Assembly: GCF_014843825.1 (NCBI RefSeq)
Contig: NZ_JHQR01000047.1
Coordinates: 1-64,000 of the forward strand
Direction of reading: 5' to 3'
DNA: 64,000 nt
From: Mesorhizobium silamurunense
GTDB lineage: Bacteria > Pseudomonadota > Alphaproteobacteria > Rhizobiales > Rhizobiaceae
Below are positions 7,950-26,288 of this stretch, piece by piece. The position numbers and the translations under genes are program-made. Every line of letters starts with the position of its first letter. Positions within the stretch are counted from its first letter, which is position 1. Under the pieces are notes generated by a model. The model did not search any database. It saw only the letters and a program-made list of their open reading frames with translations, and was not told where the DNA came from.

Positions 7950-8009
7950 AGGCAGTAGGCGTTAGGCAATAGGGAACGCACCCCTACTGCCTACTGCCCA
8001 CTGCCTACC
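7950..8009. repeat. Imperfect palindromic repeat, copy 1, between convergent genes
   Basis: A left arm of 25 bases (AGGCAGTAGGC..., 7950-7974) pairs with a right arm (7983-8007) at 21 of 25 positions around a loop of about 8 bases. It is built from GCAGTAGG-like heptamer units. It starts 6 bases after the NCS1 stop and runs into the 3' end of the DUF1697 gene, supplying that gene's last codons and TAG stop. A second copy lies at 25068-25122 in the same kind of convergent junction. It could act as a bidirectional terminator. Confidence 0.8.
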
Positions 8010-23739: not shown

Positions 23740-25067
<1,328 letters not shown>

Positions 25068-25068
<1 letters not shown>

Positions 25069-25122
25069 GAATAGGGAATGGGCAGTAGGGAATAAGATGC
25101 CTACTGCCCACTGCCTACTGCC
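25068..25122. repeat. Imperfect palindromic repeat, copy 2, between convergent gltA and lpxB
   Basis: A left arm ending GGGCAGTAGGGA (to 25092) pairs with the right arm TGCCTACTGCCC... (25098-25122) at about 20 of 24 positions with one gap. The right arm contains the same CTACTGCC units, and the 10-mer CTACTGCCCA with the stop codon, as the repeat at 7950-8009. It fills the gltA-lpxB gap and extends into lpxB, encoding its VGSGQ tail and TAG stop. A bidirectional terminator role is plausible. Confidence 0.8.
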
Positions 25123-26288
25123 TTCTTCATGCATCCCAACACCACCTCGGCCGCGATCTCCCCCGATGGCCTCTCCGTTGCCATGCGCCTGGCGATCTCG
25201 GCGAAACCTGCCTTCTGCCAGGCGCGCACGCCGGTATCGGCAAACAGGGCTTCCAGCTGACGCGCCAGGTTCTCCGGCCTGACATACTGATCGTAGAACT
25301 CCGGCACCAGCGCGCGATCGGCGATCAGATTGGGCAGCAGCGCCGACCACGTCGTCACCAGGTGCTGCAGCAATTGCCGCGCTATCGGGTCGAGCTTGTA
25401 GCTGGAGACCATCGGAACACCGGATAGCGCCAGCTCCAGCGAAACCGTTCCGGACGCGATCAGAGCCGCGTCGGCCTTGCCGAAAGCCTGCCATTTGCGC
25501 TCCGGGTCGGTGATGATCTCGGGCTTCTCGTCCCAACTCGCGACCGACGTTTTCACCAAGTCAGCGACATGCGGCACCGTCGGCAGCAGCAGGCGCAACC
25601 GGTGGCCGCGCTGGCGCAGGACCGACATTGCCTTGCCGAACGGCTCGATCAGCCGACGCACCTCGCCGCGGCGTGAGCCCGGCAGCACCAGCAGCGTCTT
25701 GACGCGATCCTCCGACAGGTCGCGCGGCAAGCTCTGCGCCTTGACGGCGCCGAGTACGCCAGGATCCTGCGTCAGCCGGTGGCCGACATAGGTGCCGGGT
25801 GGCCCGCCGAGCCGGGCAAGCGCCTTCACTTCGAAAGGCAGAATGCAAAGGATGTGATCGACATAGGGTTTCATTGCCGCCGCCCTGCCCGGTCGCCACG
25901 CCCAAACGCTCGGGCAGACATAGTGGACGATCGGGATAGTTGGCGCGGCGGCACGGACCTTTTTGGCAACGCGCAACGAAAAGTCAGGGCTGTCGATGGT
26001 GATCAGGCAATCCGGCCGCTCCGCCGCAATGGTGGCTGCCGTCTGGCTGATCCGGCGCATCAGCCGCGGCAGGTCGCGCAAGACGGCGCTGAAGCCCATC
26101 AGCGCGATCTCGCTGCCGTCGAAGAGCGGTGTCAGCCCCAGTTCCTGCAGATGCCGGCCGCCAATGCCGACGAGCTGGATCTTACGGCCGGTGGTCTTCT
26201 CGAGCGCGCGCACGATGTCAGCGCCGAGCAGGTCGCCGGATTCCTCGCCGGCGACGATGGCGATCCTGAGCGGCTTCTCACCGACCAT
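25101..26288 (-). CDS. lpxB: Lipid-A-disaccharide synthase
   Basis: Joins UDP-diacylglucosamine and lipid X into the lipid A disaccharide at the inner membrane. It is 395 aa from MVGEKPLRIAIVAGEESGD (26288). GT19 family motifs are present: GEESGDLLGA, GIGGRHLQELG, the substrate-site IDSPDFSLRVAKKV, HYVCPSVWAWRPGR and ASGTVSLELAL.GVPMV. It overlaps lpxI by 11 bases. The last residues VGSGQ come from the palindromic repeat, so the family-conserved end is about ...LGCMKKA. Confidence 0.95.
   Translation of the reverse strand: MVGEKPLRIAIVAGEESGDLLGADIVRALEKTTGRKIQLVGIGGRHLQELGLTPLFDGSEIALMGFSAVLRDLPRLMRRISQTAATIAAERPDCLITIDSPDFSLRVAKKVRAAAPTIPIVHYVCPSVWAWRPGRAAAMKPYVDHILCILPFEVKALARLGGPPGTYVGHRLTQDPGVLGAVKAQSLPRDLSEDRVKTLLVLPGSRRGEVRRLIEPFGKAMSVLRQRGHRLRLLLPTVPHVADLVKTSVASWDEKPEIITDPERKWQAFGKADAALIASGTVSLELALSGVPMVSSYKLDPIARQLLQHLVTTWSALLPNLIADRALVPEFYDQYVRPENLARQLEALFADTGVRAWQKAGFAEIARRMATERPSGEIAAEVVLGCMKKAVGSGQ

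Follow-up and report, generated by a model that had tools for sequence, protein, structure and literature searches.

Heptad-array hairpins at Mesorhizobium gene 3' ends look like ORF-less relatives of intervening-sequence-type elements

Two unrelated proteins encoded in a 64,000-nucleotide stretch of Mesorhizobium silamurunense DNA (contig NZ_JHQR01000047.1, positions 1 to 64,000; hereafter the window) end in the same five residues, VGSGQ, which raises the question of what kind of sequence lies behind the shared ending. At the first of the two places, an NCS1-type transporter gene (PF02133; 6469–7944, plus strand) converges with a DUF1697 gene (PF08002; 7991–8536, minus strand) at copy 1 of a heptad hairpin (7951–8007, no strand assigned), which has a G-rich arm at 7951–7973, a loop at about 7974–7982 and a C-rich arm at 7983–8007. 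At the second, gltA (citrate synthase; 23740–25068, plus strand) converges with lpxB (25101–26288, minus strand) at copy 2 (25069–25124, also unstranded), with its G-rich arm at 25069–25089, loop at about 25090–25099 and C-rich arm at 25100–25124. All four gene families were confirmed, and the LpxB of the window is at most 95% identical to Mesorhizobium LpxB. The first-pass annotation of this DNA had claimed that both copies sit at convergent ends and encode VGSGQ and the stop, and this is what we found: the arrays are there, and both minus-strand proteins end inside the C-rich arm (VGSGQ-stop codons at 7991–8008 and 25101–25118). The 8-bp unit GCAGTAGG that it had proposed is corrected here to the 7-bp unit NSANTRG.

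Both copies are imperfect inverted arrays of this unit, with the G-rich arm first on either strand. The strand read first carries NSANTRG units (GGCAGTA, GGGAATA and others), followed by a short loop and then the complement. In the window, 9-mers resembling GGCAGTAGG (at most one mismatch) number 19, compared with a mean of 8.3 in shuffled sequence, and none of 100 shuffles reached 19. As RNA, copy 1 is predicted to fold with −36.6 and −45.0 kcal/mol on the two strands (z −7.3 and −8.2), and copy 2 with −34.1 and −33.8 kcal/mol (z −5.2 and −6.0). Neither copy contains an ORF, and Rfam covariance models gave no match between 7700 and 25400 of the window.

The element is dispersed. In the host genome, a 7.04-Mb draft, the pattern CCTANTSCCTANTSCCTA with up to two mismatches matched 64 places, 18 of them exactly, against 4 for the reversed pattern. 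From these and looser matches, examined together with their flanking genes, about 20 elements were recognised; one of them (L033) has a C-rich array only. The matches L045 and L046 were rejected as chance, since they are partial units and one lies within a gene. A genus-wide pattern search found matches in 139 of 146 genomes, ranging from 0 to 171 per genome. With a stricter pattern, 40 of 397 genomes of the order matched, comprising 9/9 of the genus, 3/12 other members of the family and 28/376 beyond the family. Run over 119 loci totalling 877 kb, almost all of them labelled Mesorhizobium, a unit detector called 81 elements; the reversed sequence gave none.

All 20 host-genome elements lie within 13 nt of a gene 3' end or overlap one. 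After four elements at locus edges were excluded, the detector set contained 31 elements away from lpxB, of which 28 had a 3' end no more than 25 nt away, a proximity reached by 18% of random 80-nt intergenic segments. A further 20 elements from other Mesorhizobium genomes gave 19/20, and none of the 51 usable elements at non-lpxB sites in the genus lies inside a called gene. The earlier description of a dispersed repeat at gene 3' ends is thus upheld, while its restriction to convergent ends is not: the host-genome elements divide into 9 convergent, 11 tandem and 0 divergent, the 31 into 13, 16 and 2, and the further 20 into 2 convergent and 18 tandem. Convergent gaps were nevertheless enriched (14/33 elements versus 47/258 gaps, p = 0.003), as expected if every 3' end counts once. 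In tandem gaps the next start codon can be as close as 7–38 nt. Placement was looser in other Rhizobiales families, where 15 of 23 elements were near a 3' end and another 3 within predicted genes; this set includes a few arms of the long elements described next. Five elements (L165, L166, L168, L169 and L170) have unequal arms, with 10–16 units on one and 2–3 on the other, as if slippage had acted on one arm only.

In some elements the arms are about 400 nt apart and enclose a small ORF, which encodes a 23S-rRNA intervening-sequence protein (IVP/S23; PF05635, E = 9e-38; TIGR02436, E = 1.5e-36). The host IVP also matched Avd-type profiles, both under cut-off (bAvd PF22296, E = 3e-7; NF033474, E = 2e-5), and 2gsc and 2rld are related solved structures. 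Of 144 Mesorhizobium genomes, 116 carry PF05635, and 14 control genomes gave no match; the host genome has one such gene (G000:C215:2002-2316). A first set of 35 IVP loci (34 distinct) comprised the best 30 loci of the genus, the host gene, one duplicate place and three loci from other Rhizobiales families. A G-array upstream and a C-array downstream were detected in 34 of the 35, and by eye in the remaining one (L293). Among 20 further loci, taken down the score list, 8 had SANTRG arrays and 12 had inverted 8-bp arrays of the GAATTGAA type. All 51 distinct Mesorhizobium IVP genes examined therefore have a G-rich array upstream and a complementary C-rich array downstream, one array being seen by eye only. 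The arms of one IVP element (L346) are 9 and 14 copies of the octamer AGGGGAGT and its complement, an octamer that the available text of PMC6749651 describes as a Mesorhizobium ciceri satellite family.

Wherever the junction was examined, the IVP ORF begins directly past the upstream gene and in the same sense. The 51 genes fall into only five sites, with 23, 12, 8, 5 and 3 genes. By inspection, we take the sites with 23, 12, 8 and 3 genes to be acyl-CoA dehydrogenase/hydroxyisobutyrate-dehydrogenase-like (acd|mmsB), tolB-like, nuoC/nuoD and ATP-grasp-like, respectively. No rRNA match was present in 8 Mesorhizobium IVP loci covering all five sites. The acd|mmsB site was compared in 25 genomes, 19 without and 6 with IVP: 3 had full IVP elements, 16 were empty, 4 had short or relic arrays (two of them mainly by eye) and 2 had another palindrome. 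This different palindrome (ATGCATGTCGCCCAAAAGTG...), in L361 and L365, occupies the gap that holds IVP elements in other species. L366, also at this site, could be what an internal deletion left of an IVP element: it has short matches to both ends of the ORF, though too short for proof. The IVP itself is under strong purifying selection, with omega of 0.06–0.09 at three sites (22, 12 and 6 sequences).

The arms have two properties bearing on what they could do in a transcript. The upstream arms of Mesorhizobium IVP elements stop all three reading frames in 37 of 42 cases (arms shorter than 20 nt, 9 of the 51 upstream, were excluded), compared with a mean of 7.4 and a maximum of 15 in 200 rounds of shuffling. 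Downstream arms read in the sense direction do so in 0 of 51. In other lineages the counts are 5/8 upstream and 1/12 downstream. Neither 7 nor 8 is divisible by 3, and a stop within a unit of either length therefore closes every frame within three units. The second property is the predicted fold. At least 10 arm-arm pairs formed in 47 of 47 Mesorhizobium IVP elements, four loci with N being left out, and the arm duplex had z < −3 in 39 of these 47. The 16 short host-genome copies folded with median z of −5.3 and −5.2 on the two strands.

We think it probable that both window copies belong, as members lacking an ORF, to a family of intervening-sequence-like stem-loops that live in mRNAs. An element consists of two arms of 7- or 8-bp unit arrays; in Mesorhizobium, the G-rich arm precedes its complement whichever strand is read. 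A full-length member has a loop of about 400 nt holding the gene for the IVP/S23 four-helix bundle in the same sense as the upstream gene, and the common short member a loop of roughly 10–70 nt. The entry-strand unit usually contains TAG or TGA and its length is not divisible by 3, so the entry arm usually stops translation in all frames and gives the host gene its stop codon together with a short element-encoded tail. These features come from sequence comparison. In the RNA, the arms are predicted to pair into a strong stem at the stop codon, in the ribosome-free 3' end of the mRNA. This stem, by analogy with 23S rRNA intervening sequences, probably serves as an RNase III-type processing site or a 3'-end barrier, able to replace a canonical terminator; on the same grounds, we infer that heptad stems undergo RNase III processing or termination in vivo.

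Short copies may arise from IVP elements or spread with their help. Genomes with a GGCAGTA-flavour IVP (23) had a median of 67 matches to the GGCAGTA pattern, compared with 13.5 in 20 IVP-less genomes (p = 9e-6), a comparison that counts the arms of the IVP elements themselves and takes no account of relatedness, so that p is too small. For IVP of any flavour the contrast in pattern counts was weak (p = 0.04, again too small because the genomes are related). IVP-less genomes retain short copies (0–54 matches in the 20 listed of 28 such genomes), so the copies can persist without IVP. IVP occurs at five sites only, far fewer than the short copies, and IVP elements therefore need not be their source.

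The most serious competitor, which we rate as quite possible though somewhat short of probable, holds that these are selfish or neutral MITE-like palindromes, spread by some enzyme and surviving where they are harmless, past stop codons. There would then be no selection for termination or processing, and tails and stops would be by-products. Several observations agree with this: the range of 0–171 matches among congeneric genomes, the 0/51 usable non-lpxB elements inside called genes in Mesorhizobium, the emptiness of acd|mmsB in 16 of 25 genomes, and arm lengths that vary freely (e.g. 3 versus 16 units). IVP elements have matching ends, but IVP is not a known transposase. The mobility suggested in the first-pass annotation would fit the pattern of presence and absence, but no target duplication was recognised when filled and empty acd|mmsB sites were compared by eye, and no RAYT was found in the host genome. 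Against the MITE-like reading, the maintained arm complementarity (z about −5) suggests that the stem matters, and the IVP is under strong purifying selection. The lpxB slot likewise suggests that the stem matters.

The gap between gltA and lpxB was parsed in 76 of 81 loci (L056, L072, L092, L095 and L120 were left out). Of the 76, 51 held a heptad array (in L114 as judged by eye) and the other 25 a GC stem with a T-run behind it; this alternation with terminator-like stems counts against elements that merely survive. The canonical terminator was absent from 49 of 50 machine-called heptad gaps, and in the exception it lies within a 2.9-kb insert. When slot state was placed on a quick tree of the flanking genes, 11 changes were needed, at least 8 of them forced by starred branches. 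LpxB ends in RHIK or similar with a canonical stem and mostly in KAVGSRQ- or KRANRE-like tails with arrays; since the tail differs with slot state, it is the array that supplies it. The final LpxB codons vary together with slot state, which suggests that some switches were carried by ordinary homologous recombination between species. In one locus (L129:4211-7032, Mesorhizobium sp. LNHC252B00), the loop of the heptad element carries a 2,822-bp insertion with perfect 30-bp terminal inverted repeats, whose content resembles an adenylate-cyclase/TPR gene by eye. In four others (L070, L074, L075 and L077), an inner TCAGTAG/TGAGTAG hairpin appears by eye to be nested in outer GCGAATA-type arms.

A similar choice of stems was seen next to DUF1697, counted in the best 30 loci of 136 genomes with a match. 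Arrays were present in 20 of these 30, 16 of them with an S[RG][QPE] tail, and a GC hairpin in 5, all without this tail; the remaining 5 were of other kinds, one having the tail plus array remnants. The array-coded tail is thus absent from 25/25 LpxB with a canonical stem and 5/5 DUF1697 with a GC hairpin, in agreement with the earlier proposal that the repeat extends proteins.

The lpxB slot also bears on the function given in the first-pass annotation, in which the hairpins are bidirectional transcription terminators selected at convergent gene ends. They share the lpxB/gltA slot with the GC stem and T-run, their stems are strong on both strands, convergent gaps are enriched (p = 0.003, above), and copy 1 has TTTT after its stem on the DUF1697 (minus) strand. 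However, copy 1 is the only one of 16 host-genome elements with TTTT past the stem, so the GC-rich stem followed by a T-run that defines an intrinsic terminator is not their usual form. Moreover, 11 of 20 host-genome elements are in tandem gaps, where the next start can be 7–38 nt off, and IVP elements lie between apparent operon genes (nuoC|nuoD, for instance), a place in which complete termination would do harm. The proposal agrees with the alternation between arrays and canonical stems and disagrees with the scarcity of T-runs; we regard it as unlikely.

Purely local growth at stop codons, in which quasi-palindromes expand by tandem slippage and template-switch repair and do not disperse, is improbable. 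It would accommodate the variation in unit copy number within one slot (e.g. L056) and the fact that the unit types at lpxB (GGCAGTA, GCGAATA, TGAGTAG and TGAATGG) differ between sister rows with both arms changing together, and it fits the finding that the M. ciceri 'satellite' octamer AGGGGAGT (PMC6749651, in the text available) is the arm unit of L346. But slippage does not predict identical units and unit orders at unrelated genes within one genome, nor a tendency for the unit type to agree with that of the genome's own IVP arms. A REP/BIME family mobilised by RAYT (a Y1 tyrosine transposase) would share the palindromic, intergenic, 3'-end, many-copy character, but is very improbable, since PF01797 had 0 matches in the host genome (the only Mesorhizobium genome searched; control genomes, 5/14) and the arms are 7-bp tandem arrays, which the REP consensus is not. 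As with REP/BIME and RAYT-REP systems, the palindromes are dispersed and sit at gene 3' ends, and a repeat-flanked, trans-acting partner gene would be analogous; the differences are that the candidate partner is IVP and not a Y1 transposase, the 7–8 bp tandem arrays and the all-frame stops.

The association of IVP genes with periodic arrays extends outside Mesorhizobium. PF05635 was found in 62 of 398 Pseudomonadota genomes, and we analysed 21 IVP loci, with flanks located by coordinates that are approximate at four loci shortened by contig ends (L311, L313, L315 and L323). The best tandem period was 7 or 14 in 35 of 42 flanks versus 9 of 84 control windows; a strong tandem run also occurred in 5 of the 84 control windows. 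The unit sequences differ from those of Mesorhizobium. Arms were inverted and G-rich first in 14 of the 21 loci and not G-rich-first in 7, and arm complementarity reached z < −3 in 7/21 loci versus 0/19 control pairs. In two loci from other classes (L306 and L316), clear period-7 arrays are both on the same strand, so the stem is not universal; others of the seven lack a clear array on one or both sides. No rRNA match was found in 18 of the non-Mesorhizobium loci.

Solo copies of the local unit were sought in genomes whose IVP flanks have GTGAGG-type units. The pattern GTGAGGN matched 72, 49, 29 and 6 times in G724, G577, G556 and G548, and 0–5 times in 13 others, the unit having been picked from IVP flanks already seen, which means that the comparison was not blind. 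The reversed pattern gave 33 matches in G724 (versus 72), and G548 barely exceeds the other genomes; three or four of the tested genomes thus carry solo copies. Of 31 arrays in stretches of G724, G577 and G556, 20 were near a 3' end and 4 inside predicted genes.

The closest known system is the intervening sequence (IVS) in the 23S rRNA of Coxiella burnetii, described in the accessible part of PMC4990558 as a 428-nt stem-loop with complementary ends and the S23 ORF in its loop. According to the same text, 2–3 heptameric repeats precede the S23p start, RNase III cuts the stem, and IVP/S23 proteins have no known function. The long Mesorhizobium elements share with it the S23/IVP ORF in the loop, the complementary ends and the heptameric repeats by the ORF start; the two window copies lack the ORF. 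Unlike the Coxiella IVS, the Mesorhizobium elements are at mRNA stop codons and gene junctions, none of the 26 IVP loci searched in and beyond the genus has an rRNA match, the arm arrays are longer and there are many ORF-less solo copies. The long stem is general in Mesorhizobium and partial elsewhere (the 7/21 loci with z < −3). IVP is strongly conserved here; the ORF of the Coxiella IVS, by contrast, reportedly decays. On present sequence comparisons, the short hairpins seem to be relatives of such IVS-type elements that have no ORF and live in mRNAs.

Other published repeats are more distant. Br-REP1 and Br-REP2 of Bradyrhizobium, as far as the consulted part of PMC5082802 describes them, are likewise repeated stem-loops, found where the 3' UTRs of convergent genes overlap; identity with them was rejected by sequence, their consensus (e.g. 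CCGGAATCTCGAGATTCCGG) being unrelated. The TAACTGA heptamers of Beggiatoaceae are also intergenic and tandem, with stop codons in the unit, but according to PMC4679880 they are direct arrays, mostly just upstream of starts, unlike the heptad hairpins, and the terms S23, four helix bundle and 23S are absent from its text. Avd of diversity-generating retroelements, described in the excerpt of PMC10053308 as essential for retrohoming, belongs to a four-helix-bundle family homologous to IVP; IVP differs in being set within heptad arrays. A figure legend in PMC10910872, the part consulted, lists a 23S rRNA IVP domain among CRISPR-associated proteins and does not mention heptads. No link of PF05635/IVP genes to dispersed heptad hairpins was found in the partial texts searched, which cover few subscription journals, and a search by exact heptad strings returned nothing on bacterial repeats among the matches listed. 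The IVP gene has so far been known mainly from rRNA inserts, and its link to dispersed heptad hairpins may be new.

A broader reading, which we put forward only tentatively, is that IVP/S23 proteins, as ring-forming relatives of Avd, could be the trans-acting partner of heptad-array stem-loops across Pseudomonadota and perhaps beyond. IVP would recognise arms of 7- or 8-bp period and drive their copying, possibly via RNA, to the 3' ends of new mRNAs; classical 23S IVS would be one specialised niche, and the unit would be 7 or 8 bp because such arrays stop all frames. That the arms are inverted in just 14 of 21 non-Mesorhizobium loci lowers its probability.

Heptad hairpins may represent a type of bacterial genome element that has been overlooked. 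At one slot they are a second structure type that exchanges with canonical terminators, and they may explain unannotated 'satellites' and the short common C-terminal tails of annotated proteins. The pairing of IVP with period-7/8 arrays, the matching solo units and the purifying selection on IVP together point to a testable function for this protein, as partner to a dispersed RNA or DNA element.
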